Shown here piece by piece: positions 2,534 to 19,907 of a stretch of DNA of 33,354 bases. The notes under the pieces are model-generated. The model worked only from the letters and a program-made list of their open reading frames with translations, did not search any database and was not told the DNA's origin. Position 1 is the first letter of the stretch, and the number at the start of each line of letters is the position of its first letter. The DNA lies in IMG/VR virus record IMGVR_UViG_3300033156_000731, positions 1 through 33,354 of that record. One strand, written 5' to 3'. The position numbers and the translations under genes were made by a program. Source of the DNA: a virus.

Positions 2534-2782
2534 ATGCTGACCGCTGAGCCTACGCTTAAGGAGCGCCAGTGTAAGTGCGGACGCACAATATGGGGGCCAA
2601 CAGGTACACGGTTTTGGGTATGCACTTGGCAGAAATGGGATTCATCATGTACGAATACGAAATATCCAATAGACGGTGGTTGCAAGGAAACCATTCTGAT
2701 AGACGTCGGCCTTGACGCCAAGTTCTGCCCGTATTGCGGAGGGGGGCCGACAAACCAACCCAAAGAGGAGGATGAGGAATGA
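2534..2782 (+). CDS. Small Cys-rich zinc-ribbon-like protein
   Basis: 82-residue protein. I chose ATG at 2534, which follows GAGGAGGGG at the end of the previous gene; the open frame extends further left but without a ribosome site. Cysteines occur as CKC near residue 13, single cysteines at about 30, 39 and 50, and CPYCGGG near the C-terminus, so one or two structural zinc sites are likely. The tail is acidic (KEEDEE). It overlaps the next gene by four bases (ATGA). The pattern suggests a small zinc-binding adaptor or host-takeover protein, but no function can be assigned. Confidence 0.55.
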   Translation: MLTAEPTLKERQCKCGRTIWGPTGTRFWVCTWQKWDSSCTNTKYPIDGGCKETILIDVGLDAKFCPYCGGGPTNQPKEEDEE

Positions 2783-3012
2783 CCTACTACCAAAAGTGCA
2801 AGCGATATGCCAGAATCCTTTCGTCCAAATGGCGTACTCCACTTGATTTGCGGTGTGTCCAGGATGACCCACGTTTGTGGTACGCAGAAATAAGACCTTG
2901 GTGGCTGCGGGATTGGTATATAATAGCCTCAGGCCGCACCCGTGAGTCGGCTTGTAAGCACCTATGGCAGATACTCGTTGAGGATTATGGAGTGAAGGAG
3001 GATGAGCTATGA
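2779..3012 (+). CDS. MTYYQKC-type small protein, copy 1
   Basis: 77-residue protein that is clearly paralogous to the following gene. Both begin MTYYQKC and share a YA pair a few residues later. Both then carry a nearly identical C-terminal block, GRTRESACK followed by LW, LVEDYGV and an acidic end. The middle (residues 13-50) differs and is rich in Trp and Arg in this copy. The C-terminal block looks like a helix-forming module. The start overlaps the previous stop and is preceded by GAGGATGAGGA. No known family recognised; the duplication itself supports real coding function. Confidence 0.65.
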   Translation: MTYYQKCKRYARILSSKWRTPLDLRCVQDDPRLWYAEIRPWWLRDWYIIASGRTRESACKHLWQILVEDYGVKEDEL

Positions 3013-3233
3013 CCTACTATCAAAAGTGTAGGCAGTATGCTAAGAGAAGCGGTGGTTTCTTTAATGCTTATCGGTATACTGCTGCCCCCCTGGCGGTCTG
3101 GCATGTAATTGCAAGTAGTGAATTGATAAATCGCTATGCTGTGGTGAATGCTTGTGGCCGCACCCGCGAATCAGCCTGCAAGAGACTTTGGGAAACGCTC
3201 GTTGAGGATTATGGAGTGGAGGACACGGGGTAA
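3009..3233 (+). CDS. MTYYQKC-type small protein, copy 2
   Basis: 74-residue paralogue of the preceding gene, sharing the MTYYQKC start and the GRTRESACK-LW-LVEDYGV C-terminal block, with a diverged middle. The two genes overlap by four bases, as expected after a tandem duplication within an operon. The stop codon sits inside the loop of a hairpin at 3222-3243 that may end the transcript. Function unknown. Confidence 0.65.
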   Translation: MTYYQKCRQYAKRSGGFFNAYRYTAAPLAVWHVIASSELINRYAVVNACGRTRESACKRLWETLVEDYGVEDTG

Positions 3234-5521: not shown

Positions 5522-5951
5522 GTACCATCGCCCGAAAGTCTGGGCACGGGCGGGCGCCTGCAACGCCATCTGTCTCGTCGGCCAACTGGATTCTATGGTC
5601 GGTAAACTCGGCGAGGGCACCGCTATCTTCTTCATGGTGGTCAACGAGGCCCTGGCCACTGACCCCGACAAGCCCGCCGACAAGCCCGCGAGAATCCCCA
5701 TTGTCTGGCGCGGCAAGACGGCTAGCGTCGTGCGGAAGCTGCTCACAGAGGGCCAGTGGGTGATGGTCAATGCGCAGTTGTATAGCACGTGGGAGGAGGA
5801 CGAGAACGGCGAGCCACTCCAGGTCTGGGAAATCCAGGGCCAGCGCTTTCACTGCATCACGAGCCGCGAGGAAGCATCCCAGTTGATGAGGAAGGAGCCG
5901 AGGCGCGGCGACAACTGGAGGGAGGAGGTTGACATCTTCACCATGAGATAA
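5484..5951 (+). CDS. ssb: Single-stranded DNA-binding protein (OB-fold)
   Basis: 155-residue protein resembling bacterial SSB. An early strand NAICLVGQLDSM is followed by TAIFFMVVNE, then IPIVWRGKTASVVRKLLTEGQWVMVNAQLYSTWEEDENG-LQVWEIQGQRFHCI, matching the OB-fold strand order and the typical K-G-x-x-V-x-V-x-G-like segment. It would protect ssDNA at the fork. The usual acidic DDDIPF tip of host SSB is missing; the C-terminus instead reads REEVDIFTMR. ATG 5484 was chosen because the OB fold begins soon after it. It is the last gene before a strong hairpin and follows helicase and resolvase with overlaps. Confidence 0.8.
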   Translation: MSGVTTALPPKVEYHRPKVWARAGACNAICLVGQLDSMVGKLGEGTAIFFMVVNEALATDPDKPADKPARIPIVWRGKTASVVRKLLTEGQWVMVNAQLYSTWEEDENGEPLQVWEIQGQRFHCITSREEASQLMRKEPRRGDNWREEVDIFTMR

Positions 5952-5982
5952 GCCCGCCCCCGCATAAACGAGGGCGGGCTTC
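5951..5982. terminator. Bidirectional hairpin terminator between convergent operons
   Basis: AAGCCCGCCC (5951-5960) pairs perfectly with GGGCGGGCTT (5973-5982) over ten base pairs. It lies exactly between the plus-strand SSB-like gene (stop overlaps the first base) and the minus-strand XRE gene (stop at 5989). The stem ends in AA/TT so each strand has a short U end, but there is no long U-tract. Position between converging genes makes a two-way terminator the best reading. Confidence 0.75.
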
Positions 5983-5988
5983 ACCGTG

Positions 5989-6201
5989 CTACTCCACCTG
6001 ACCGTCGGGCACCTCACCCATCTCCTTCAGTTCCTCCATCTTCTTCCTCGCTTGCTTCGCGAGCAGCTCCTCGTATGCCCAATGCAGGTCCTCGCGTTCA
6101 ATAGCCCAGATTGCATTCACCGACACGCCGAGGGCTTTCGCCACATCGCTCTGCCGCAGGCCCAAAGCGCGCCGTCGCTCAGCTCTGGTCATCGTCATCA
6201 T
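5989..6201 (-). CDS. Small XRE-family (Cro/CI-type) regulator
   Basis: 70-residue protein with a single helix-turn-helix of the XRE/Cro type at residues 6-38: RAERRRALGLRQSDVAKALGVSVNAIWAIERED, where the LRQSDVAKALGVS part gives the recognition unit. The C-terminal half is a charged helix (YEELLAKQARKKMEELKEM) that could dimerise. AGGAGGT lies just upstream of the first ATG (6201); ATG 6198 is equally possible. It is the last gene of the minus-strand operon and overlaps the metalloprotease-like gene by 23 bases. It probably controls early or replication promoters; the palindromes in the intergenic hub are candidate operators, but no site is demonstrated. Confidence 0.8.
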   Translation of the reverse strand: MMTMTRAERRRALGLRQSDVAKALGVSVNAIWAIEREDLHWAYEELLAKQARKKMEELKEMGEVPDGQVE

Positions 6202-6892
6202 TGTTCACCTCCTCATCCTCCCTGAACACGCGCAGAAGAGTTGCCCGCTTCGGTTCGCCAGGTTCACGCCTGTACTCCCTGCAAAGCACCCACTTGTAGT
6301 AAGGGCTATCCCCCTCCGTCCGCAGGACAAACGTATAGACTAACTTGTCTCCGCCCGTGTGTTTGTCTGCCCCTGCACTCATGGCCTCCACAAGGACCCA
6401 ACGCACTTCAGGGTACGGTCTCTGAACACCCTCGAATGTGAAGCCCGTGTACTCGGCAGGCAGCACAGCCACAATCTCCCTTATGGCCAGTTGCCGCGTG
6501 AAGCGAGGCGGAGTGTATGGCTCAAAGTGCGGGACATCAACGCCCCAGACCTCCAGCACCTTGCGGAAATACCTGCAGAACACGGGGCCATGTGCATCCT
6601 CCAGGTCATCCGGCGACTGCACGTCCTGCAAGTAGTGTGCGAACTCGTGAAGCACGGTCGCTTCGCTCACCGGCGGGTTAAGCACGATGACGTGTTTCTC
6701 GTCATCATAGTATCCAGGACGCTTCAACCGGCGGCTGAACCGCACCGGAGGCTCCTCCACCTCGAACCGAGAGGCCAGCTTTTTGAGCCTGCGTTCGGCC
6801 TCCGCTTTACCGACCATGTTGTGCTCCAGCTTCTTCTTCGCGAGGACCAGGCCAGGGTCCCAGCGAAATGTGTAGTCGTGTAGGTACTTCAC
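6179..6892 (-). CDS. SprT-like HExxH metalloprotease-like protein, copy B
   Basis: 237-residue protein with a zinc-protease signature HEFAH at residues 82-86 (catalytic Glu E83) and a probable third ligand in HGPVFC (H101), the layout of SprT/Wss1-like and related metalloproteases. Start set at GTG 6892: it is preceded by GAGGTG and its N-terminus then aligns residue by residue with the paralogue at 8879 (WDPGLVLAKKKLE against YDPGLVLAEEELE, HEFxH at 82 in both). The frame continues upstream to a TTG that lacks similarity. After the protease-like core come a shared VLEVWGVD...PYTPPRF...AIREI block and a C-terminal domain that ends in DDDDQS. Substrate unknown; SprT-like enzymes can degrade proteins crosslinked to DNA, which would fit its place beside the clamp, but this is inference. 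Confidence 0.7.
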   Translation of the reverse strand: MKYLHDYTFRWDPGLVLAKKKLEHNMVGKAEAERRLKKLASRFEVEEPPVRFSRRLKRPGYYDDEKHVIVLNPPVSEATVLHEFAHYLQDVQSPDDLEDAHGPVFCRYFRKVLEVWGVDVPHFEPYTPPRFTRQLAIREIVAVLPAEYTGFTFEGVQRPYPEVRWVLVEAMSAGADKHTGGDKLVYTFVLRTEGDSPYYKWVLCREYRREPGEPKRATLLRVFREDEEVNNDDDDQS

Positions 6893-6934
6893 TGCTGTAT
6901 CACCTCGTCGCTCATGAATGCCCTCCCTCGGCAA

Positions 6935-8233
6935 TCACAGCACCTGCATCGGCATAAGAAGATATTGCCTATCCTCCTCCCGAAGTGCAAATGCCTTTAA
7001 CGGTTCTTGGTACTCCAGCGTCACCTCCTCGCCCTGGAGCATCTCGAGGCCGCGAGCAAGGAAGCGGTAGTTCAAGGCAAACGGTTCCGCTTCGCCTGTC
7101 CAATGCGCGGGCACTTGCGCTTCTGCGCTACCGGCCTGCCTGCTACTGGTGACAAGGTGTAGCGCGGCGTTGTTCAGCTCAAAGACTATCCGCCCGCTTG
7201 CCTCTGCTGCTATCGGCGTCAACTGGTCTATGGCATCCAGCATATGCTTGCGGTTGAACGTGATTCGGCACTGCATATTCTCCGCAGAAGGGACAACCTT
7301 CTCGCAGTTCGGGAAAACCCCGTCAATAGGCTTTGCCCACACGGTGGTACCCCTGTTATGCAGGAACACATGCTCCTTGCCTATCACCAGTCGGGTTCCG
7401 TCGCCCTCGGCACGCTTGGCTGTGATACCTGTCCACAGGTTCAGTGCCTTGACCGGAACAATGCAGTCATCGCCTTCATGCACCCGCGCAGCCAAAGTTA
7501 CCCGCGCAAGCCGATGGGTGTCCGTAGCCACGAGGTCCAGCGCACCTTCGCGGAGCCGGAACAGTACGCCTGTAAGTATCGGGCGAGCTTCATCCGCCGA
7601 GGCTGCAGGCGCAACTGCGTCAATTGCCTCCCGCAGTTCGGCAGTGGGGAAGTCCACCTCCACCTCCGGCGATTCGTCGCCAACCGCAGGAAACTCCTCG
7701 GCAGGGTGAGTCTCAATAGCGCTCACCACATCGCTGCACTCGACGCGGAGCATGTCACCGTCACGGTGCAGGTTGATAACCGCGTGCTTCGGCAATCGCC
7801 GCAGAACGCTTTTCAGCACAGCCGCCTCAGGACATACCGGTGGAAGGCTACCCCGCGCCTTCACTTGCTGACGGATACCGAACTCGCGCCTTGTCGCGCT
7901 CACACGCAACTGCCCCTCATCGCCCTCCAGTAGCAATGTCCTGAATATAGGCGGCGCGGGTGTAGTGCCCATATTACCCCAACCACCCCAACCAGTGCGA
8001 GTGGGAAATGTGGTCGTTGTCGCCCTCGAGGCCGACTTCACAACGTCCAACAGGTCATCCCTCCAGACATTCAGCCCCTCCGCCGGAACCGGCAATTCGG
8101 CCTGTCGCTTCTGCTTGCTCCTCCTTCGGGGTTTGAGGCCTTCGGCAAGCTGCACAAGCGCGTCTCGCCAGTCCAGGCGGCCCTCCTCAACTTCACTCGT
8201 CAATTGCTGTACTAACTTTTGTGCTTTGGTCAC
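6935..8233 (-). CDS. dnaN: DNA polymerase sliding clamp (beta subunit-like)
   Basis: 432-residue protein with the three repeated domains of the bacterial beta clamp. Domain 1 starts near residue 57 (DDLLDVVKSASRAT ... LLLEGDEGQLRVSATRREFGI). Domain 2 follows (TAELREAIDAVAPAAS ... PILTGVLFRLREGALDLVATDTHRLARV). Domain 3 follows (NRKHMLDAIDQLTPIA ...) and ends YLLMPMQVL, like the MPMRL end of host clamps. It would encircle DNA and tether a polymerase. It is longer than the usual 365-380 residues: there is an N-terminal extension of about 55 residues with a basic linker (KPRRRSKQKRQ, 34-44) and a Gly/Trp-rich insert at about 77-95. GTG 8233 is chosen for its GAAGGAGGAG site; the start lies 41 bases inside the upstream protease-like gene, implying coupling. 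No polymerase gene is in the window. Confidence 0.88.
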   Translation of the reverse strand: MTKAQKLVQQLTSEVEEGRLDWRDALVQLAEGLKPRRRSKQKRQAELPVPAEGLNVWRDDLLDVVKSASRATTTTFPTRTGWGGWGNMGTTPAPPIFRTLLLEGDEGQLRVSATRREFGIRQQVKARGSLPPVCPEAAVLKSVLRRLPKHAVINLHRDGDMLRVECSDVVSAIETHPAEEFPAVGDESPEVEVDFPTAELREAIDAVAPAASADEARPILTGVLFRLREGALDLVATDTHRLARVTLAARVHEGDDCIVPVKALNLWTGITAKRAEGDGTRLVIGKEHVFLHNRGTTVWAKPIDGVFPNCEKVVPSAENMQCRITFNRKHMLDAIDQLTPIAAEASGRIVFELNNAALHLVTSSRQAGSAEAQVPAHWTGEAEPFALNYRFLARGLEMLQGEEVTLEYQEPLKAFALREEDRQYLLMPMQVL

Positions 8234-8879
8234 TATGCTCTCCTCCTTCGCCCGTTTCTGCGGGCTTGTATTGTGGTGAACGCTGCAACTGCACAGTCGC
8301 CACATGCCAGCCGAAGTATGGTGTAGGGGCTTCGCGGCCAAACCGCGCAACCGCACATACATCGCCTGCCGGCGTAGTGACGAACAATTCCCTGCGATCG
8401 CCCGCGCGGATGATGTCCTGAACTTTGACTTCCTCCGGTTTACACCCCAGGCGGTCGGCTATCTCGCGAATAATCACTCGCCTGTTAAAGCGCGGGTTGT
8501 ACGGCTTATACCAGGGGGCCTCCACCCCCCACACCTTGAGCACCCGCCGGAAGTCACGGCAGAAACCAACACTATGCACGTCATTCAGCGCGCTTATAGC
8601 GTCGCGGAAGTGGCGCAGGTGATGCGTGAACTCGTGGAGTACCGATGCTTCGGTTATACGTGCAGGCCCGAAGCAGATGATTCCTTCCGTTGCATTATAG
8701 TAGCCACCCCGCATCCCGTTCTTCACCTGCAGGCGCGGCACCGGAACCCCGAACTCTTCAGCCAGCAAGTGCAACATTGCCTCTGCGTCTTCGGCATCAA
8801 GCGGGCGTTTTTCCAGCTCCTCCTCGGCGAGGACTAATCCAGGGTCATACCGGTATGTCCAGTCCCTGCGAAGTTTCAT
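8193..8879 (-). CDS. SprT-like HExxH metalloprotease-like protein, copy A
   Basis: 228-residue paralogue of the protein at 6892. It has HEFTH at residues 82-86 and a third probable zinc ligand at H102 (VHSVGFC), and it shares the YDPGLVLAEEELE N-terminus and the VLKVWGVE...PYNPRF...IIREI block. The C-terminal domain differs more. The start is supported by GAAGGAGGAG four bases upstream and by a GCCCGC/GCGGGC hairpin before that site. The last 41 bases overlap the start of the clamp gene. Together with its paralogue it brackets the clamp, so both probably act with the replication machinery or share its regulation. The proteins could be peptidases of DNA-bound proteins, or DNA-binding scaffolds that keep only the fold. 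Confidence 0.7.
   Translation of the reverse strand: MKLRRDWTYRYDPGLVLAEEELEKRPLDAEDAEAMLHLLAEEFGVPVPRLQVKNGMRGGYYNATEGIICFGPARITEASVLHEFTHHLRHFRDAISALNDVHSVGFCRDFRRVLKVWGVEAPWYKPYNPRFNRRVIIREIADRLGCKPEEVKVQDIIRAGDRRELFVTTPAGDVCAVARFGREAPTPYFGWHVATVQLQRSPQYKPAETGEGGEHSDQSTKVSTAIDE
8240..8265 (-). promoter_or_regulatory. Hairpin plus ribosome-site cassette before the clamp
   Basis: On the minus strand a GCCCG/CGGGC stem (8261-8265 with 8250-8254) directly precedes GAAGGAGGAG (8240-8249), six bases before the GTG at 8233. The same decamer, with the same or similar spacing, stands before three other starts of this operon (8879, 9242, 9320), and the AAGCCCG arm precedes three of the four. It looks like a duplicated translation-initiation cassette. 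Confidence 0.55.
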
Positions 8880-8966: not shown

Positions 8967-9320
8967 TCAGCACGGCGGCAGCGGCGAGACTGAGTCCAGG
9001 TACTCTCTCCGCTCCTCTTCAGCCTCTCGCCACTCCCGCAACTCGTCCTGCAACGCAACCAACACCGCCTCTGCGGGCGCATACCGCAGTACACGTGCCG
9101 CCTCCTCTGCGCCGCGCACCGGCACTTGCTGGCCGGTAGCCACCCTGCATACGTACTTGCCAATGTCATCCTCGGTAAACCCGCTACCGTCAGCACCAAA
9201 CCTCCACTCCACCAGGTCTGCAACTGCTTGGCGTACGTCCATCTTGCTCTCCTCCTTCGGGCTTAGAATGTCTCGCAACAACGGACTGTTTACATCGTAC
9301 TCCCTAACTTCAACCTGCAT
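8967..9320 (-). CDS. Small hypothetical protein, first gene of clamp operon
   Basis: 117-residue protein of unknown function. Two in-frame starts each have an identical GAAGGAGGAG site six bases upstream: ATG 9320 (MQVEVREYD) and ATG 9242 (MDVRQAVADL), so a 117- and a 91-residue form may both be made. The C-terminal part is acidic and helical (LVALQDELREWREAEEERREYLDS). The middle (FTEDDIGKYVCRVATGQQVPV) has no recognised motif. It is promoter-proximal in the minus-strand operon and separated from the next gene by a strong hairpin. The open frame reaches up to 9374, but that part runs through the promoter. Confidence 0.6.
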   Translation of the reverse strand: MQVEVREYDVNSPLLRDILSPKEESKMDVRQAVADLVEWRFGADGSGFTEDDIGKYVCRVATGQQVPVRGAEEAARVLRYAPAEAVLVALQDELREWREAEEERREYLDSVSPLPPC

Positions 9321-9349: not shown

Positions 9350-9378
9350 ATTGTACACTATACATATACCACATTCAA
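9350..9378 (-). promoter_or_regulatory. Sigma70-like promoter of clamp operon
   Basis: Read on the minus strand: TTGAAT (9378-9373), 17-base spacer, TACAAT (9355-9350). That is four of six and five of six matches to the consensus with ideal spacing. Transcription would start near 9343, about 23 bases before the ATG at 9320, leaving just enough room for its ribosome site. It faces away from the late genes and probably serves all five minus-strand genes. Confidence 0.65.
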
Positions 9379-11148: not shown

Positions 11149-12864
11149 ATGAGTACCGAGGCGGATGACAGCTACCAAAAGCTTCTGGCTGCAGTGCGGC
11201 GTGATGCCGAGCAGGTAATTAAGCACGGGCAGGCCGGATTGAGCAGCCAGGCACGCACCTGGTACGCCCACGTCAAGCGCGAGATGAGCGATTCGGACTG
11301 GATTGATCGGCGGGTGCGGCTGCTGACGGAGTTGGAGCAGTTCATCGGAGAGTTCTTCGGGCTGCGATTCGGGGGGCAGTGGCTTCACAAGCCGGTGCAC
11401 AGACCCCTTTTCCGCTACCTTGACAAGTCGGTGCCGCTGGTTGCGGACCGGCCGCTCAAGCAGACATCGCGACTGTTCCTTGCGGCGCGCAACACGTTCA
11501 AAACCAGCATATTCGTGCCCTACGAGACGCAAATCACGCTGCGGGACAAGGAAGTGCGGTGCCAAATCGGTGGGTTCCGGCAGGCGGAGAGCGAGCACCG
11601 GCTGGCGATGGTAAAGAAGCTCCTTGAGTCCGAGCAGGCATGGTTTTGGTTCCCTGACCACGTGTGGTACAATGATGACAAGCCCAGGACGGTGCGGTGG
11701 ACGAAGGATGCGCTTGACCTTCGCGGGAGGCGGCAGCTCGTTGACCCGTGTATTTGGGCCGTCAGCTACGGCGTGTCGGTTGCCGGTGCGCACGCCCACA
11801 ACCGCCTGCTTGACGACGTTGTGAACGAGGAGACGTGCAACACAGCGGACCTGCTGCAGAAAACGATTTCGACGTGGGAGTATCTGAACCCGTGTAGCAG
11901 CTTGAACCTCATCGAAGACATCGTGGGCACCTTCTACGACCGCGACGACCTGTACAGCTGGCTGATTCGGGAAGGGTTCGTGCAGTACAAGTGGATAGTA
12001 CCGGCGTACGTTACAAAAGAGTGGCTCCGCGACTACCCTGAGATGCAGGACAAACTCGAGTTCGACGAGTACCCGCTCGGCAAGCTGCTCTTCGAGAATC
12101 GGTTGACGGAGGAGTTCCTCGAGCAGGCGGCTGAGCGGCTAAGCGACTACGTGTTCGGCTGCCAGTACCTGCTGAACCCGACCGCAAAGACCAGCAGGCT
12201 GAAGAGGGAGTGGCTGCGTCCGTTCAAGCAGGAGGAGCTGCCGAAGAACGTCGTTTACTACATGACCGGCGACCCTGGCGTAAGCACGAAGGCTGGTTCC
12301 AGCGAAGGCGCGCTGGTGGTGTGCGCGTGGACGCATGATGGGCACTGCTACATCGTTGATCTGGAGGCTGGCAGGTGGAACACGCGCGAGTTTGCTCAGC
12401 GGGCCGTGACTATGTACAAGCGGTGGGCAGGCCCTGACTTCATGGAGTTTGGGATGGAAAGGGTGTCGTTCCAGGCCGCACTGCACGAGGTGATTCGCCT
12501 CGTCGCGCAGGAGGAGGGCATAGGCGACCTGCCGCTTGTGGAGCTGCCAGGCGCGTACCTTGGCGTGGGGCGTCGGGTTGACAGAATATCAGGCCCCGCC
12601 TCAATGGGGATGATTCACTGTGCTGACCATCTAATACCGCTGCTCATGCCGCAGTGGGAGCGTTTCCCCGACCCGAGCGGGCGGAACATGGACAGGCTTG
12701 ACGCGGTGTCGTACCAATTCACAGTTGACAAAAACGGTGAGAGGTGGGTAGTCTTGCCATACGAACCCGCGCTCGAGGCCTCCCCGTCGGACTACAGCAA
12801 GCTGCTGCCGTCGCAAAGGCCGCCCGAGATGCGAAAGAGCAGCAAGAACTGGAGGTTGATGTGA
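11149..12864 (+). CDS. terL: Terminase large subunit
   Basis: 571-residue packaging motor. The ATPase domain has a Walker A-like loop AARNTFKT (residues 112-119, K118) after LFL and a Walker B RLLDD (219-223) followed by VVNEE (E227/E228 as catalytic Glu candidates). The C-terminal RNase H-like nuclease domain shows TGDPG (D375) after a strand VVYYM and NMDRLDAV (D515 and D518) near the end. It would cut concatemeric DNA and pump it through the portal. ATG 11149 has GGAG seven bases upstream. The last codons overlap the GTG of the next gene. The classical order TerS-TerL-portal is altered: no obvious small terminase precedes it. Confidence 0.92.
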   Translation: MSTEADDSYQKLLAAVRRDAEQVIKHGQAGLSSQARTWYAHVKREMSDSDWIDRRVRLLTELEQFIGEFFGLRFGGQWLHKPVHRPLFRYLDKSVPLVADRPLKQTSRLFLAARNTFKTSIFVPYETQITLRDKEVRCQIGGFRQAESEHRLAMVKKLLESEQAWFWFPDHVWYNDDKPRTVRWTKDALDLRGRRQLVDPCIWAVSYGVSVAGAHAHNRLLDDVVNEETCNTADLLQKTISTWEYLNPCSSLNLIEDIVGTFYDRDDLYSWLIREGFVQYKWIVPAYVTKEWLRDYPEMQDKLEFDEYPLGKLLFENRLTEEFLEQAAERLSDYVFGCQYLLNPTAKTSRLKREWLRPFKQEELPKNVVYYMTGDPGVSTKAGSSEGALVVCAWTHDGHCYIVDLEAGRWNTREFAQRAVTMYKRWAGPDFMEFGMERVSFQAALHEVIRLVAQEEGIGDLPLVELPGAYLGVGRRVDRISGPASMGMIHCADHLIPLLMPQWERFPDPSGRNMDRLDAVSYQFTVDKNGERWVVLPYEPALEASPSDYSKLLPSQRPPEMRKSSKNWRLM

Positions 12865-13217
12865 CACCGATACTGCTGAGCGATGCGATGAAACTGTTCG
12901 GGCTACAATACCACGAACTCGTGCAGTTCCCGAGGGTACGAGTACATGGCGACAAGAGGGCATACGTGCGCAAGGAGGACATCCAACTGCACCTTGGGCG
13001 GCACGGGAAGTTCCTCTCCGAGGGCGAAGCGGAGATTATTCAACTGCTGCGCGTCAAGCCTCCAGGGTTATCTGCACCGCCCACGCACAAGGAAGTTGCA
13101 GCGTTCCTAAAACGCCCAATCGGTACAATCAGTGGCCGCATAACGCGCCTGCGGGCACTGGGCTACATGGCACCAGGCGCCTACAGGCACAGGGGCCTCG
13201 CCCTGGCTATCAAGTGA
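12861..13217 (+). CDS. Double DNA-binding-domain protein (winged helix)
   Basis: 118-residue protein started at GTG 12861, five bases after GGAGG and overlapping the terminase stop by four bases. The frame runs further upstream inside the terminase gene, but without a site. The N-terminal part (LLSDAMKLFGL...RVRVHGDKRAYVRKEDIQLHL, residues 5-45) resembles an excisionase/MerR-type winged helix in which a substrate residue and a DI-x-x-HL helix follow a loop. The C-terminal part (THKEVAAFLKRPIGTISGRITRLRALGYM, 75-103) is a typical winged helix-turn-helix with a basic wing (YRHRGLALAIK). It could be the small terminase, misplaced behind TerL, or a regulator of the promoter just downstream at 13246-13275. 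Confidence 0.65.
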   Translation: MTPILLSDAMKLFGLQYHELVQFPRVRVHGDKRAYVRKEDIQLHLGRHGKFLSEGEAEIIQLLRVKPPGLSAPPTHKEVAAFLKRPIGTISGRITRLRALGYMAPGAYRHRGLALAIK

Positions 13218-13245
13218 CGAAATTATGTCAATTTATGAGTAAGTG

Positions 13246-13275
13246 TTGCCTTTTGCCGCTTTCGGTGGTTATAAT
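13246..13275 (+). promoter_or_regulatory. Sigma70-like promoter before portal
   Basis: TTGCCT (13246-13251), 18-base spacer, TATAAT (13270-13275, perfect -10). It lies in the only gap (78 bases) between terminase and head genes, with a predicted start near 13282, about 14 bases before the portal ATG. A/T-rich DNA with repeated AATT-ATG motifs (13221-13237) precedes it. It would allow head genes to be made independently of the terminase transcript. Confidence 0.6.
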
Positions 13276-13295
13276 GCCAGTGGGAGTGGCGAATC

Positions 13296-15179
13296 ATGGC
13301 CGAAGGCGGCAAGACGAAGCCCGAATCGGTCTCATACATGCTGGGGCTGACCAAGGAGCTTCGCCAACAGTATTCGGTGATGTGGAAGGAGTGGCTGACC
13401 GACCTCAGCTACTACTATGGCCGCCCATCGCTGAATGACGCAAACAAGGTCACGAACGACCTCATCGTCAACCTCGTGTTTGCCAGCGTCGAAACCCACG
13501 TATCCCACATGTTGCTCTCGAAGCCCGAAATCTTCGTTCGCGCCGTGCAGGAGGAGTACGACGATGCCGCAGCAGCCGCGACGAACATCCTGCATTCGGT
13601 GCAGATTGAGGCGGGCCTTCAAGCCTCCTACCAGCGCCTCTGCCGCATAGCCTCTCAAACCGGCACCTCGCTGATGCTTGTGAGGTGGGAGCAGCCGACC
13701 GGACGCCCTGGTCAAATCAAGCTGGATGTACTTGACCCGTTCACAGTTTACGTTGACCCGAACGCGACCTCGATTGATGATGCGGAGTACATCATCATCG
13801 AGAAGTACCTGACCATCGCCGAGGCCAGGCGGCAGTTTCCCCTTATGGCTGACGCCATCCCCGAGATGCCGAAGGTTCAGGTTGAGGAGCCGAGCTACCT
13901 CAGAAAAGCGGCGAAGCTTGCCAGGGCCCCTGGGCCGAATGAATTGAAGGAGAAGGAGAACAAGCGCCTTCGCTACCTGCAGGCATGGGTGCACGGCGGG
14001 AGGGTTATCGTCGAGATTCTGGGCGATATGCACGTAAAGCAGCGGATTCTGACCGAGGAGCGCGAATCACCGTACCCGAACCCGAACTACCACGGAACGT
14101 TCCCGATAGTGCCATTCTATGCGACGCAAGACGCAAGGAGTTTCTGGGGCATAAGCGACATTCGCAACATTCGAGACCCGCAGGATGAAGTGAACAAGCG
14201 CATGAAGCAGGTCATCGAGGTGGCCGACCACATGCGCATAATCCAGAGCAAGCTTTTCGTGCATTCGCGTGATAGAGACGTTGACACCGACGCGCTCAAA
14301 ACGACCGACTTCGAGATCATCAAGGTGCAGGACATCGCGCACGGCGTGCCCCGCACGATTCAGTCGGACGCATTGCAGCAGTGCGGAATCCTGCTCCAGA
14401 TGTCGCAACTGTCGGAGTACAACATTGACCAGATAACGGGCCTTTACAATCCGGCGAAGGGCGAGCAGGCGACGGGAGTGTATTCCGGCAGACATGCTGC
14501 GGCATTACAGTCGGCCAGCGCGATACGATTCCAGCCGCGCCTGGATTCCGTGGTTACATCCTTCCGCAGGCTCGGGCACCTCATGCTAAGCCTTCTGCAA
14601 CAGTACCAGATGATGGACATAAACAAGCGCACGTACTACAACCCCAAGGGCGGGCAAATCAAGACGCACGATGAAGAGGGCAAGCCGATACTACCAGTCC
14701 TGCAGGACAAGGACGGTAAGCCGCTTGACTTCGTGCCTGGCTTTGACCCCCGCTTCGAGATAGTAGTGCAGCCGACCGACGAGGTGCCGATGGCGAACCA
14801 GGCCAGAGGGCAACTGTTGCTGCAGATTATGCAGGCCGGCGGTGCCGACATCGAGGCCGTCGTCAGAGCGCTGCGGCTGCCGAACGGTGAGGCCATGCTC
14901 GAACGCATAGGCAAGAAGGCCGTCGCCGGACTCTCACCGGTCGCTTACTACCCCGACGAGGTAGTCGAAAAACTGTACCAACTTGCAATGCAGCGCATCA
15001 AAGAGCAGGTTCAAGCCGGAAACAGGGAGGGTGCCCTCAATGAAATGTACGGGCCAGAGGGGGCCGCCGCGCCAGAGGAGCAAGGCCAGCCCCCCCCGCC
15101 AGGTGCTGGAATAAGCCCTGAGGAACAGGCGATGATGCAGGCGCTGGCGGAGGCTCAAGGCCGCCCGATGGGAGGGTAG
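13296..15179 (+). CDS. Portal protein
   Basis: 627-residue protein with features of podovirus-type portals. An N-terminal helical part contains SYYYGRPSLNDANKVTNDLIVNLVFASVETHVSHML. The core has LVRWEQP...LDVLDPFTVYVDPNATSIDDAEYIIIEKYLT, a common portal stretch in which a DP-x-x-V-x-x-DP segment lines a strand. A long stem-like helix region precedes QVIEVADHMRIIQ. A Pro/Glu-rich C-terminus ends EEQAMMQALAEAQGRPMGG. It forms the dodecameric channel at the capsid vertex. ATG 13296 has GGGAG upstream. A run of eight C (15090-15097) lies in its 3' end. Placement between terminase and scaffold supports the call. Confidence 0.9.
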   Translation: MAEGGKTKPESVSYMLGLTKELRQQYSVMWKEWLTDLSYYYGRPSLNDANKVTNDLIVNLVFASVETHVSHMLLSKPEIFVRAVQEEYDDAAAAATNILHSVQIEAGLQASYQRLCRIASQTGTSLMLVRWEQPTGRPGQIKLDVLDPFTVYVDPNATSIDDAEYIIIEKYLTIAEARRQFPLMADAIPEMPKVQVEEPSYLRKAAKLARAPGPNELKEKENKRLRYLQAWVHGGRVIVEILGDMHVKQRILTEERESPYPNPNYHGTFPIVPFYATQDARSFWGISDIRNIRDPQDEVNKRMKQVIEVADHMRIIQSKLFVHSRDRDVDTDALKTTDFEIIKVQDIAHGVPRTIQSDALQQCGILLQMSQLSEYNIDQITGLYNPAKGEQATGVYSGRHAAALQSASAIRFQPRLDSVVTSFRRLGHLMLSLLQQYQMMDINKRTYYNPKGGQIKTHDEEGKPILPVLQDKDGKPLDFVPGFDPRFEIVVQPTDEVPMANQARGQLLLQIMQAGGADIEAVVRALRLPNGEAMLERIGKKAVAGLSPVAYYPDEVVEKLYQLAMQRIKEQVQAGNREGALNEMYGPEGAAAPEEQGQPPPPGAGISPEEQAMMQALAEAQGRPMGG

Positions 15180-15185
15180 CGCAGG

Positions 15186-15653
15186 ATGCCCATTCCTCGG
15201 CGCCGGAAAGGTGAGAGCGTGTCCTCATGGCGGTACAGGATAATGCGGACGGAGATGGAGTACGGGAGGCCGGAAAAGCAGGCGTGGGCAATCGCGTACA
15301 GCGAGACGAGGACGGCTGGCTCAAAGAAGCGGAAAAGTGGTCGTGGTTCTACCAGGTCGCGACGTGGCAAATCCAAGAAGAAGGCGAGGAAGATGGCCAG
15401 AAAGAGGGCAAGGCGCGGCTCCAAAGCGAAATCGAGGAGTAAAACGCCGCAGAGAGGCTTCCAGGCGATAAAGAAGGCCAAAGTGGCGCAGATACGGGCG
15501 CGAGGGAGTAAGACGGCAGGCGGCAAGAGAATCAAGGACCCCGAGGCCTATGTGGCGGCAGGGCTTAGGCGCACCGGTATCGCAAAATACGGCGAAAAGG
15601 GGTTCGCGGCTCGGCAGAGGAAGGGCCGCAGGAAATCCAGCAGAAAGCGGTAG
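15186..15653 (+). CDS. Highly basic virion-region protein
   Basis: 155-residue protein with extreme positive charge: residues 40-85 are almost wholly Arg/Lys/Ser/Gly (KKRKSGRGSTRSRRGKSKKK and onward), like a protamine or histone tail. The N-terminus (RIMRTEMEYGRPEKQAWAIAYSETR) resembles a short phage motif of the kind LMREGKPQKQAVAIALSE, and the C-terminal half (GGKRIKDPEAYVAAGLRRTGIAKYGEKGFAARQRKG) resembles small basic phage proteins with a KDP-x-A-x-x-A...KYG..KF pattern. ATG 15186 follows GGGAGGG. It may condense DNA, bind nucleic acid in packaging or sit in the head. It lies directly after the portal. Confidence 0.65.
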   Translation: MPIPRRRKGESVSSWRYRIMRTEMEYGRPEKQAWAIAYSETRTAGSKKRKSGRGSTRSRRGKSKKKARKMARKRARRGSKAKSRSKTPQRGFQAIKKAKVAQIRARGSKTAGGKRIKDPEAYVAAGLRRTGIAKYGEKGFAARQRKGRRKSSRKR

Positions 15654-15661
15654 GCGGGCTT

Positions 15662-15982
15662 ATGGCAAGAAAACCGGTCCCACCAAAGCGGATGGCTAAG
15701 CCGAAGGCGGTTGCGCCCGAGGAGGCCCTCAACCCGATTGCCGAGATTCGGAAGAAGGCGCAGGTCACAGCGGCGCAATTCGCTGTTGCGATAGATGTGC
15801 CGGTCAGCGTGATAAACAATACCGAGGCCGGAGTCTATCCCGACCTCACGACCAGCCTACGGGAAGGCCTGAGACTGGTAGGCCTTGACCCCGACGAAGT
15901 GAACAAGCGATACGTCGAGTGGGTGAAGACCCGCAAGGAAGTCAGTTTGGACGACATACGCAAGAGACTCGCGAAGAAGTAG
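15662..15982 (+). CDS. XRE-like helix-turn-helix protein in head operon
   Basis: 106-residue protein with a basic N-terminus (MARKPVPPKRMAKPKAV) and an XRE/Cro-like helix-turn-helix in the middle (TAAQFAVAIDVPVSVINNTEAG, about residues 36-57), followed by LTTSLREGLRLVGLDPDEV and a basic tail. Its place between a basic protein and the scaffold is unusual for a regulator. It could control late transcription, act as a small terminase-like DNA binder, or have been adapted for the virion. The ribosome site is weak (GCGGGC). Role inferred only from fold. Confidence 0.55.
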   Translation: MARKPVPPKRMAKPKAVAPEEALNPIAEIRKKAQVTAAQFAVAIDVPVSVINNTEAGVYPDLTTSLREGLRLVGLDPDEVNKRYVEWVKTRKEVSLDDIRKRLAKK

Positions 15983-16012
15983 GCCCCAATAATGAATACG
16001 GAGGTATCTAAG

Positions 16013-16774
16013 ATGGAACGTCCCGACGAAACCCAGCCCTCCGCTGAAGGCGTGCTCCCGAACGATGGCGGACTCGGCGATACGCCCCCGACCAGCGACA
16101 GCGGACTCAGCAGCCAGCCTGAACCGGAACTCGGCGTGGATGCAGGGGACATTCCCGACGACCCAGAGCAGCTCAAGCAGATGGTCGCCACCCTCACCAA
16201 GCGGTTCAAGGACACGCAGGCCAAGTTGACCGAGGTGTCCACCGAACTCGCTCGCGTGAAAGAGGATTCTGGCACCACCGGAGAGCCGACCTGGGGAGGA
16301 CAGGGCGCGTCGGTTCCAGACCCTTGGGACCTCGTTGCGCCCGAGACGGAAGCCGTTGCGCCGGAAGCGCAGGCTATCCAGCAGTTGCAGCAGCAGGTCA
16401 GTGTGCTGAGCGCCGTGGTTGCCGACGTTGGTATCGAGAATCAGATGCTGAAACTCGAGGACCAGATAGGCCGGTCCTTGACGTCGGAAGAACGGCAATC
16501 CATTCGCAAGTTCTGCAATGATCGCCGCACAGCGGACGTCGCAGGTGCGTGGAAACAGATAACCTACGACCGAGCAATTGCAGAAGCGAAGGAACGCGGC
16601 AAGCAGGAAGCGCTCAAGGAACTGCAGCAGGCAAAGCAGGGTAGCCAGAAGCCGCCTCCAGGTGAAACGGCAGAACCTGCGCTTGGTGGAGAGGGCGGTG
16701 CAGTCAGCTACGACGAGGCTATCCGGTACGCCATTGAACGGGGAGACATCCCAGGCGTGGATGAACCGTTGTAG
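16013..16774 (+). CDS. Scaffolding-like protein
   Basis: 253-residue acidic, low-complexity protein immediately before the capsid gene, the normal place and character of a scaffold. It has a Pro/Gly/Asp-rich N-terminus and heptad-like coiled-coil segments (LKQMVATLTKRFKDTQAKLTEVSTELARVKE; IQQLQQQVSVLSAVVADV; ALKELQQAKQGSQ). ATG 16013 is chosen because GGAGGT lies seven bases upstream; ATG 15992 in the same frame has no site. It would direct capsid assembly and be removed later. No protease is seen nearby. Confidence 0.75.
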   Translation: MERPDETQPSAEGVLPNDGGLGDTPPTSDSGLSSQPEPELGVDAGDIPDDPEQLKQMVATLTKRFKDTQAKLTEVSTELARVKEDSGTTGEPTWGGQGASVPDPWDLVAPETEAVAPEAQAIQQLQQQVSVLSAVVADVGIENQMLKLEDQIGRSLTSEERQSIRKFCNDRRTADVAGAWKQITYDRAIAEAKERGKQEALKELQQAKQGSQKPPPGETAEPALGGEGGAVSYDEAIRYAIERGDIPGVDEPL

Positions 16775-16822
16775 AACGCAGCACCATGCTCCTCCGCCTC
16801 GCGACAAACATGGAGGTAAAGC

Positions 16823-17755
16823 ATGGCTACGGCTCTTACAACGACCATCGAAAGCGCAGCCAAAGCTTGTCGCCTTCCATTCACTGACCAAATCTACAAG
16901 CGCGGCTACCTTGGGCAGGAGCTGTGGCGCAATAAGATTGTCACCGGCGGCGGGAAGTACATCTACCTGCCGGTCAACCTGAGCGCCACCGGTCTGGTCG
17001 GGACTCGTAGTCCTGGCGAAGCGATAAGCTACCAGACACCTGATACCATCAAGTCGCCGGTGCTTGATTGGCGCTACTACTGGGCGGCTGGCTCGATTCC
17101 GAGGGAGTACATCAAGCAGGCCAGCGGTCGCAACCAAGTAGTTGACCTGGTCAAGAATGAGATTCAGCGACAAGGCCGAGAGCTGCGGCAGCACATCTGG
17201 ACTCACGTGTACACCGGTACTGGCGACAGCCAAATCACCGGACTGGTTGACATCTGCAGCACCAGCAATACGTATGCGGGGCTTAACCGCTCCACGTACA
17301 CCAACTGGCAAGGCAACGTGTCCACCGAAACAAGCGTCGAAGACGCGGACATGAACACTGCCATTGCCGCATGTTCACAGGACGACGAGCGCCCGAACCT
17401 GATTGTCACGAACACGGCATTGTGGCTTGAGATGCAGAGGGTCTGGGCGCTGCCGTACATGCACTACACCGACACGAAGAACGCCAACTACGGGTTCACC
17501 GGACTGTCATTCTCCGACATTCCGGTTATCCACGACGACCTCTGTCCCTCGACGTACATTGCCATCCTGAACACCAAGTATCTGCACTGGGTGGTTCCGG
17601 ACGCCAATGACCCGTTCGAGGTGGAGACGTTCGTGGACGAGTCCGACGTACCAGGCGTGAAAATCCGAATCGCGCCCATGCTACAACTGGCGTGCACGTG
17701 GCCGAAGTACCAGTACCTGTTCACATCGGCCACGTCCATCGTCAAGGCGTCATAA
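16823..17755 (+). CDS. Major capsid protein (HK97-like fold)
   Basis: 310-residue protein resembling HK97-fold capsid proteins of podovirus-like phages. An N-terminal part ends KIVTGGGKYIYLPV. A SPVLDWRYYWAAGSIPREYIKQASG stretch, a long helix (VDLVKNEIQRQGRELRQHIWTHVYTG) and the sequence ITGLVDICSTSNTYAGLNRSTY follow. Then come NLIVTNTALWLEMQRV and SFSDIPVIHDD, with a C-terminal domain that includes VETFVDESDVPGVKIRIAPMLQLACTWPKYQYLF. ATG 16823 follows TGGAGG; a CCTCC at 16791-16795 could mask that site by pairing with GGAGG (16812-16816). Stands after the scaffold and before a probable decoration protein. Confidence 0.88.
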   Translation: MATALTTTIESAAKACRLPFTDQIYKRGYLGQELWRNKIVTGGGKYIYLPVNLSATGLVGTRSPGEAISYQTPDTIKSPVLDWRYYWAAGSIPREYIKQASGRNQVVDLVKNEIQRQGRELRQHIWTHVYTGTGDSQITGLVDICSTSNTYAGLNRSTYTNWQGNVSTETSVEDADMNTAIAACSQDDERPNLIVTNTALWLEMQRVWALPYMHYTDTKNANYGFTGLSFSDIPVIHDDLCPSTYIAILNTKYLHWVVPDANDPFEVETFVDESDVPGVKIRIAPMLQLACTWPKYQYLFTSATSIVKAS

Positions 17756-17770
17756 GGGAGGTGGCATACA

Positions 17771-18253
17771 ATGGCGCACGTTGGAAAGGTTAACGCAGTT
17801 GCAGTGCCGCTTGGTGCCACCACATCCGCTGGCACCTTGACGCACGAAGTTGACGCGACAGACGGTCGGGCGCAGTACAAGTTCACGCATAGCGCGACGG
17901 CTACCGTTACAGTACCGTTCGAGGTTGTGGTTCCTCGGGGCTGCAACGAGATTGTGGAGGCCTTCGTCTATCACCAGGCGAACCAGGCGGACGCCACCAA
18001 CAAGCTCACGCTGACGGTGTACGGTAGTGATGCGGCGACGACTGCGACGACCGCGCACACGGGCACAGCGTGGACGAGCGCTACGGTGGACTGTAGCGGA
18101 ATCACCGTCGCGCCGTACAACGAGACCCCATCCACCGCAACGGGTCTGCCTGGAGTCATCTTCGGGCAGATAGAAGTGGTTGTGGACGCGAACGATACGG
18201 GGACTTTCAGTCTGCCAATCTTCGTGTTCCAGGAGAACCTAATGACCGGATGA
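17771..18253 (+). CDS. Possible head decoration or cement protein
   Basis: 160-residue, beta-rich, Thr/Ala/Val-rich protein directly downstream of the capsid gene, with GGGAGGTGG before its ATG. The composition (TATVTVPFEVVV, LTLTVYGSDAATTATTAH) is like an immunoglobulin-like or jelly-roll virion protein. Position suggests a capsid cement or decoration protein. No family match recognised, and a head-completion role is equally possible. Confidence 0.5.
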   Translation: MAHVGKVNAVAVPLGATTSAGTLTHEVDATDGRAQYKFTHSATATVTVPFEVVVPRGCNEIVEAFVYHQANQADATNKLTLTVYGSDAATTATTAHTGTAWTSATVDCSGITVAPYNETPSTATGLPGVIFGQIEVVVDANDTGTFSLPIFVFQENLMTG

Positions 18254-18264
18254 TGGAGGTGAAA

Positions 18265-18289
18265 GGGGAGGGGGCCAGCCCCCCTCCCC
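18265..18289 (+). promoter_or_regulatory. Strong GC hairpin before the glycosyltransferase gene
   Basis: GGGGAGGGGG (18265-18274) pairs with CCCCCTCCCC (18280-18289), ten base pairs with a five-base loop, seven bases before the ATG at 18296. The left arm contains the only Shine-Dalgarno-like sequence near that start, so the hairpin would mask it. No T-run follows, so an intrinsic terminator is unlikely unless factor-dependent. Confidence 0.55.
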
Positions 18290-18295
18290 GCCCGT

Positions 18296-19270
18296 ATGAT
18301 AGAAAACAGCGCCGAGCCGGTTGTCAAGGGTGCGAAGCCCGAAAACGTGCCAGTTGCTCCGCTCCACAATACGCGAGAGGTCGCAAAGCGAAGAGCACAC
18401 GCGGTTGACGTGTCTTTCCAACTCGTCATGCCCGAGGAGTTCCCTCTTCTCAATCCTGTGGTGAGAAGCGTTCTTACAAGGGAACTTGGCGTCAAAGAGG
18501 CTGACCGTATCGCCAACCTCATAAAGGAAGAGGGCGGCACCCGATGCGCAGGCGGCTGGCTCCCCACCGACGTGGCGCTGAACCTGACTAACCAGATTGC
18601 AACGCTGCCGCTTGCCACCATGCAGGCGATGGTACAGACGGCGTCCGGACCGGAGCGCGGGCCCCAACGCGATTCGCTCGTCAAGGACGCGCTGGAAAAG
18701 GATGTGGAGTACATCTTCATACAGGACTCGGACGTGCTACAGCCTGCGAATGCGTTCGCAATGCTCAAGGGCGTGATGGATGAGCACAGTCTCGACATTT
18801 GTGCGGGCGTGTACTTCACCAAAACGTCGCCGTGTCAGCCCCTCATAGGCATAGGGCCTGACCTACCCTTCTGGGATGGCTGGTACGAGGACAGATGGAA
18901 GGTTTGGGAATGCACGCTGGTGGGCAACGGATGCTTGCTCGTGCGGAGCGATGTGTTCCGCAACATAGAGCCGCCGTGGTTCCTGGATGTGGCGGAATTG
19001 CACCCCGACGCACCGCCTACCAGTATGACCGACGATGCACACTTCTGCCGCAAGGCTATGGACGCGGGCTACAAGATTCACTGCTACACCGGTGTCACCT
19101 GCGGCCACCTGGACATTCACAAGGGTGTTGTTTACGGTTTCGACCCAGAGAAGAAGCGACCTGCTTGGCGAAGGTTGCGCGGCACGTGGCAGCCCTTCGT
19201 CGGCGACGTAGTCCCGCTGGAGGAGGGTGGGGATAATGGCAACGCTCTCGGACATCAGGCAGCAGGTTAG
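18296..19270 (+). CDS. Glycosyltransferase-like protein (GT-A fold)
   Basis: 324-residue protein resembling GT-A glycosyltransferases. It has QDSDV (D144-S-D146) as the metal/nucleotide-sugar DxD motif, GERGPQRDSLVKDALEKDVEYIFIQ-type lead-in, and then ICAGVYFTK. WECTLVGNGCLLVRSDVFRNIEPPWF and DDAHFCRKAMDAGYKIHCYTGVTCGHLDIH match the typical phage GT-A series (GxGCxLI, ED-x-x-FCRK-x-x-x-AG, CGH). It would transfer a sugar to a protein, DNA or cell-surface acceptor. About 85 residues at the N-terminus do not fit the fold and may be a separate domain. It lies among virion genes, so modification of a virion protein or fibre is plausible. Its end overlaps the next gene by 35 bases. Confidence 0.75.
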   Translation: MIENSAEPVVKGAKPENVPVAPLHNTREVAKRRAHAVDVSFQLVMPEEFPLLNPVVRSVLTRELGVKEADRIANLIKEEGGTRCAGGWLPTDVALNLTNQIATLPLATMQAMVQTASGPERGPQRDSLVKDALEKDVEYIFIQDSDVLQPANAFAMLKGVMDEHSLDICAGVYFTKTSPCQPLIGIGPDLPFWDGWYEDRWKVWECTLVGNGCLLVRSDVFRNIEPPWFLDVAELHPDAPPTSMTDDAHFCRKAMDAGYKIHCYTGVTCGHLDIHKGVVYGFDPEKKRPAWRRLRGTWQPFVGDVVPLEEGGDNGNALGHQAAG

Positions 19271-19907
19271 GGATTATATCGGCGAGCCGACGGCTCAGCA
19301 CTGGTCCGACGTGCTGCTCAACCGCTTGATAAACAACGCCTACCGCGAGGTGGCAATTCAGACCCGTTGCGTAGGCTCAGACTGGACCGATGATACCGGC
19401 GCGGACCAGTCGGACTACCCTCTGCCCGAACAACTTATGCTGCCCCCCGACGGCGTGATATACGACTACACCGGAACACCGAGGCAACTGGCCTACACGC
19501 CGATGCGAAGCAACTGGGCAACCTGGAAGCGGGCAGGTTCGGGCACGCCGGTGTACTACACGGTCCTGCGCTACAAGCAGCAGCACATGCTCCGGTTGAT
19601 GCCTGCCCCTTCGTCGGCGTCGAAGCAGTTGTACGTATGGGGCGCCTGGATTCCTGACTCGCTGAGCGCGGATAACGATGTCCTCGAAATGCCGCTGCAG
19701 GCGCACGAGGCAGTCGCCCTGCTCGCGGCCTACAAGGCGTTCGCTGAGTGGGAAGAGTGGGACCAGGCGAACCAACTTCTCCAGTTCTACGTTGTTGCCC
19801 GCGACAATGTGATTGCGGATATGAAGAGCGGCGGGCCTATTGTGGACACGCAGGGGACATCTGGGACGGTCGAACTGGCAGGACTGTTACCGTCGGAGGT
19901 GGCGTAA
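19236..19907 (+). CDS. Head-tail adaptor (T7 gp11-like)
   Basis: 223-residue protein beginning MATLSDIRQQVRDYIGEP with HWSDVLLNRLINNAYREVAIQTRC, a helical pattern shared by many phage adaptor proteins (W-S-D-x-x-L-x-x-x-I-N-x-A-x-R-x-I). A beta-rich middle (YPLPEQLMLPPDGVIYDYTGTPRQL; PVYYTVLRYKQQHMLRLMP) and helices (AHEAVALLAAYKAFAEWEE) follow. It would form the ring between portal and tail. ATG 19236 follows GGAGG; GGAGGT near its end is the ribosome site of the fibre gene. Confidence 0.75.
   Translation: MATLSDIRQQVRDYIGEPTAQHWSDVLLNRLINNAYREVAIQTRCVGSDWTDDTGADQSDYPLPEQLMLPPDGVIYDYTGTPRQLAYTPMRSNWATWKRAGSGTPVYYTVLRYKQQHMLRLMPAPSSASKQLYVWGAWIPDSLSADNDVLEMPLQAHEAVALLAAYKAFAEWEEWDQANQLLQFYVVARDNVIADMKSGGPIVDTQGTSGTVELAGLLPSEVA

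Follow-up and report, generated by a model that had tools for sequence, protein, structure and literature searches.

SprT-like metalloproteases are widespread in phage annotation, and the literature that we found assigns them no tested function. In human Spartan (SPRTN), which is recruited by PCNA, as in Escherichia coli SprT (YggI), the catalytic site is recognised by an HExxH motif with a third histidine some 12-14 residues further on, typically within HG-x2-[FW]; the E. coli protein has HELAH-x12-HGKEW and carries a C-terminal Cys4 zinc ribbon. Spartan, ArdC and IrrE are gluzincins, with His as the third ligand in Spartan and Glu in ArdC, which itself is closest to Spartan and IrrE (PMC7213743). 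Among 224 jumbo phages surveyed, some encode SprT-like proteins in one to three copies, for which the authors prefer host proteins as suggested targets (PMC7824862), and in mycobacteriophages SprT-like proteins are widespread and structurally similar to the human protein of entry 6MDX (PMC12363180).

Here we describe two SprT-like proteins, P1 and P2, which bracket a DnaN-type beta sliding clamp in a virus record of 33,354 bases (IMG/VR IMGVR_UViG_3300033156_000731), analysed over its whole length and referred to as the window. The two are a divergent addition to this known class of phage proteases, in an unusual gene order. Several SprT-like copies per genome have already been described in some jumbo phages; what is new is a divergent, ribbon-less pair on either side of a clamp.

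Results

The two genes belong to a leftward string that runs from about 9320 to 5989 and comprises, on the minus strand, one or more small upstream genes without a family match (8967-9320), P1 (8193-8879, ATG start, 228 residues), the clamp (6935-8233, GTG start), P2 (6179-6892, GTG start, 237 residues) and an XRE-type helix-turn-helix (HTH) protein of 70 residues (5989-6201). Codon-position GC bias supports P1, the clamp and P2 as coding, and a Shine-Dalgarno-like site is found at every gene of the string, AAGGAGGAG lying just 5' of the P1 ATG and recurring as a strong site 5' of the clamp GTG at 8233. This start codon lies within P1, which overlaps the clamp gene by 41 bases, and the end of P2 overlaps the start of the HTH gene, which has its own Shine-Dalgarno site, by 23 bases. 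On the 5' side of the string, a possible promoter, TTGAAT-17-TACAAT (9350-9378, minus strand), is a consensus match only, at 9 of 12 positions. On its 3' side, a perfect 10-bp inverted repeat, AAGCCCGCCC/GGGCGGGCTT with a 12-base loop (5950-5981), separates it from a converging rightward string that encodes a DnaB helicase, a Hjc-like resolvase and SSB. The repeat, a possible two-way terminator, was read off the sequence itself; its loop exceeds what the scanner allows. No terminal repeat was found in the record.

P1 and P2 are diverged paralogues. The sequence-only reading had described them as an HExxH pair with a shared start, a third probable zinc ligand and a downstream VWGV...PY block, and coordinates, frames and residues agree with this. 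In BLASTP, 61 of 143 aligned residues are identical (43%, E 1e-33), far above chance, over a region that takes in the common start DPGLVLA, HEFxH and VWGV...PY; beyond residue 143 the likeness is weak. The motif occupies residues 82-86 in both proteins, as HEFTH in P1 and HEFAH in P2, and an HExxH arises by chance in about 2% of P1 shuffles. The candidate third ligand is H101 in P2, 14 residues past the motif (HEFAH-x14-HGPVF), and H102 in P1, 15 residues past it, where the glycine has been lost (HEFTH-x15-HSVGF). Both proteins show the SprT-like combination of HExxH and downstream histidine (spacing 15 in P1), and the likeness to E. coli SprT extends to HExxH followed by HG-x2-[FW] and to a VL-x-GV element with H-x-F or H-F after it. 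The full metal site is probably retained in both copies, which would probably bind zinc and be active.

The suggestion of a SprT/Spartan-type fold is borne out by profile, sequence and structure searches. The Pfam SprT-like profile PF10263 scored 26.3 bits against the isolated P2 domain (gathering cut-off 25.6) and 26.1 bits in a six-frame search; full-length P2, at 24.3 bits, fell slightly under the cut-off. P1 alone matched no SprT profile and did not reach the PF10263 threshold, either at full length or as an isolated domain, and is assigned as SprT-like because of its identity to P2. TIGR04338, an HExxH metallohydrolase family of NCBIfam, matched P2 weakly (2.2e-4, well below cut-off). The top PDB sequence match of P2 was human Spartan (6mdx, E 0.017), aligned without gaps through HExxH-x14-HGPxFC, and the spacing of this motif in the SprT domain of Spartan (6mdw/6mdx) is identical to that of P2. 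A profile-profile comparison of P1 and P2 with home-made SprT, YgjP and M78 alignments did not favour SprT (weak, 19): M78 aligned out of register, and the YgjP-type set was the most similar, at probability 92 with HExxH in register. Starting from two sequences only, the comparison says little on SprT versus YgjP; the Pfam score for YgjP is 12.1 bits for the isolated P2 domain, versus 26.3 for SprT-like.

As the AlphaFold2 model of full-length P2 (pLDDT 69), in which confident residues were confined to the N-terminal part, gave a mixed fold search, the catalytic domain (6503-6889, minus strand) was modelled by itself, with a pLDDT of 88.5 and a pTM of 0.85. In a Foldseek search of the PDB, the top of the list consisted entirely of zincin peptidases and zincin-containing regulators. 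Spartan was matched with probability 1.00 in 6mdx (query TM 0.57, rmsd 4.2, a weak E-value of 3e-2) and 0.99 in 6mdw (TM 0.55), the TM of 0.57 being the highest among the matches listed. In BFVD, the best named match was the 'SprT-like protease' of Mycobacterium phage Yuna (A0A5J6TL57; probability 1.00, E 1.4e-3, rmsd 2.5 over 95 columns), and many further named matches were SprT-like. No Foldseek match of the domain model in the PDB or BFVD had an E-value below 1e-3, and the assignment is carried not by any single score but by the concurrence of profile, motif and fold. P1 and P2 would accordingly share their catalytic fold with the described phage SprT-like proteases, from which they have diverged too far for BLAST detection and from which they differ in bracketing a DnaN clamp and in a C-terminal beta domain that matches no family.

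Both proteins are predicted to comprise an N-terminal zincin domain, with HExxH and the third histidine, and a C-terminal beta domain that replaces the zinc ribbon; in P2 the latter (6182-6505, minus strand) is mostly beta in a low-confidence prediction. A Cys4 zinc ribbon or zinc-binding subdomain is absent, P2 having two cysteines and P1 four scattered ones, with no CxxC pairs. They thus depart from E. coli SprT in the ribbon and from human Spartan in several parts, since neither its zinc-binding subdomain nor its basic region, PIP box or ubiquitin-binding part is recognised in them. SprT-like in their catalytic domain but ribbon-less, they therefore fall short of full SprT or Spartan proteins. 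Neither shows an evident DNA-binding feature, and both are mildly acidic overall.

The protein encoded between them is a genuine DnaN-type beta clamp. It scores 176.9 bits against TIGR00663 (cut-off 137.65), matches phrog_947 at 2.5e-56 and beta clamps in the PDB at E-values down to 1e-26, and all three clamp Pfam domains are present. These matches confirm the clamp that had been read from the sequence between the paralogues, and its start inside P1 agrees as well. Ahead of the standard first domain, the N terminus is extended by an unusual basic stretch of about 48 residues (pI 10.2; 8090-8233, minus strand), which the strong Shine-Dalgarno site at the GTG supports; a longer open frame that reaches 8362 is not needed. 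The peptide-pocket motifs ATDTHRL and LMPMQ are kept, so the clamp could bind partner peptides. None of the window proteins that were scanned was recognised as a DNA polymerase, and the clamp therefore probably serves that of the host.

Does the association of clamp and protease recur? PF10263 had no match in any of 94 other clamp-bearing records (80 IMG/VR clamp contigs and 14 phage records), a survey that very divergent members could escape, given that the profile fails to detect P1 itself. Nine HExxH frames lying within 4 kb of the clamps on the 80 contigs look spurious, being mostly antisense to the clamp. Conversely, a DnaN clamp was found neither in the flanks of 80 SprT-bearing viral loci nor in the 50 records of this set that were searched throughout, a set collected with bacterial-type SprT patterns; many of the surveyed records are fragments. 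The neighbours of the other clamps surveyed thus lack SprT-like proteins that PF10263 would detect, the very outcome that the sequence-only reading had named as counting against it, and the order protease-clamp-protease is so far unique to this phage. In P1 and P2, a pattern scan for bacterial clamp-binding motifs, which a degenerate motif would escape, returned none.

Discussion

What do these features suggest about the role of the pair? We favour, at a probability of roughly 45%, an active SprT-type pair that would clear DNA-bound proteins from the replicating phage genome, with the clamp as an operon neighbour. P1 and P2 would be zinc metallopeptidases made early, from the same leftward string as the clamp and the small HTH protein, and would cut the DNA-bound proteins that block replication of the phage genome, be these host-encoded roadblocks or crosslinked proteins. 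The two copies might have different targets or form a heterodimer, and the clamp would act with the host polymerase, as a neighbour only. Of the earlier proposal of protein removal or clamp handling at the fork, it is the removal of DNA-bound proteins that may survive, by analogy with the family, while the survey and the motif scan speak against clamp handling. As the order protease-clamp-protease was seen in no other phage examined, the clamp link is unproven; with neither recurrence nor a clamp-binding motif, the parsimonious reading is an early-gene operon with a duplicated protease gene, in which the clamp is probably a mere neighbour of the proteases and not their partner.

A plausible, if less probable, alternative is counter-defence or host take-over, in which SprT-fold enzymes cleave defence or regulatory proteins of the host early in infection, each copy having its own target, and the clamp neighbourhood reflects early expression. 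The survey of jumbo phages takes patchy spread and copy number as grounds for preferring host proteins as targets (PMC7824862), and the present case is similar: the two copies have diverged, their distribution is isolated, and a link to the clamp is not conserved. Moreover, the structurally related ArdC, whose metalloprotease fold (6i89/6sna) superimposes on the P2 domain model at a TM of 0.46, is an anti-restriction protein, though its protease activity is dispensable (PMC7213743). ArdC differs in having Glu as its third ligand. Against this reading, the ssDNA-binding DUF1738 domain of ArdC is missing from P1 and P2, and neither has a defence-related family match in PADLOC. The Spartan-type catalytic site and the co-expression with a replication gene tip the balance, by a small margin, towards the clearing of DNA-bound proteins.

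Two further readings draw on the immediate gene neighbours, and both are improbable. The HTH gene, a genuine XRE-type match (PF01381, 25.7 bits versus 23) that adjoins and overlaps the end of P2, raises the possibility that P2, and perhaps P1, are regulator proteases of the ImmA/IrrE (M78) kind, which would cleave the HTH protein and so switch phage gene expression. These share the zincin fold, and the top Foldseek matches of the P2 domain model by E-value are IrrE/PprI and a transcriptional regulator of M. tuberculosis, the E-values of the IrrE family being equal to or slightly better than that of Spartan. However, TM values to IrrE are only 0.32-0.36 as against 0.57 to Spartan, and the HTH protein has just 70 residues. 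PF06114 (M78) was not reported for P1 or P2 at E<=1, nor for the isolated domains at E<=10, and the signature of the M78 proteins that we fetched, RFT[IL]AHELGH with a downstream E-x-(E/D)A-N/D-x-FAA, is absent from both. An ImmA/IrrE identity was rejected on signature, profile and third ligand, the last being a His placed as in Spartan and not Glu. Less probable still is a direct engagement of the clamp, by which P1 and P2 would remove the host or phage clamp from DNA or be recruited by it as Spartan is by PCNA. The clamp does lie between the two genes, co-directional and with its start inside P1, and its retained peptide-pocket motifs could allow partner binding; the empty surveys in both directions, the spurious HExxH frames near other clamps and the missing clamp-binding motif all weigh against it. 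Least probable of all is the elaborate version in which a ribbon-less, replisome-associated SprT-type heterodimer would act with the phage clamp to remove proteins from the fork or swap them there, as a separately evolved counterpart of Spartan and PCNA.

On gene arrangement alone, no clamp-protease system can be claimed. What this phage, so far without close relatives, does provide is a compact pair that lacks the ribbon, keeps both predicted metal sites and shares its string with a replication clamp; such a pair is well suited to asking whether the SprT-like enzymes of phages attack DNA-bound or host proteins.

As for relatives, searches of viral contigs with P1, P2, the clamp, the capsid and alignments of P1 with P2 yielded none save two weak SprT-like matches, one scan of genome contigs with the P1/P2 core had no match, and tblastn of P2 in phages gave nothing significant. 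The two weak matches, on IMG/VR contigs (L003, 2550-3152; L004, 7539-8141), are to a SprT-like protein with HEFAHYLQ that is encoded between terminase and portal and opposite to them, and not next to a clamp. The terminase of our phage has distant relatives only, at 22-31% identity and mostly in phages of marine Rhodobacteraceae, and its head genes (11149-19907, plus strand) encode a P22-like portal, an SU10-like adaptor above cut-off and a weakly matching SU10-like capsid. The phage is thus without a close relative in the collections searched.

A few observations concern the remaining genes. PADLOC matched the HTH protein weakly to HTH_VI and to mad1, in both cases likely through no more than the shared HTH. 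A second tandem pair of paralogues, beginning MTYYQKC..., is encoded at 2779-3012 and 3009-3233 on the plus strand (40% identity over 75 residues, E 1e-14), so that gene duplication is not peculiar to the proteases. Finally, a protein of 1340 residues (28470-32492, plus strand) shows a weak match to LPD38, a large polyvalent-protein domain, at an E-value of 0.007, which is under the cut-off.
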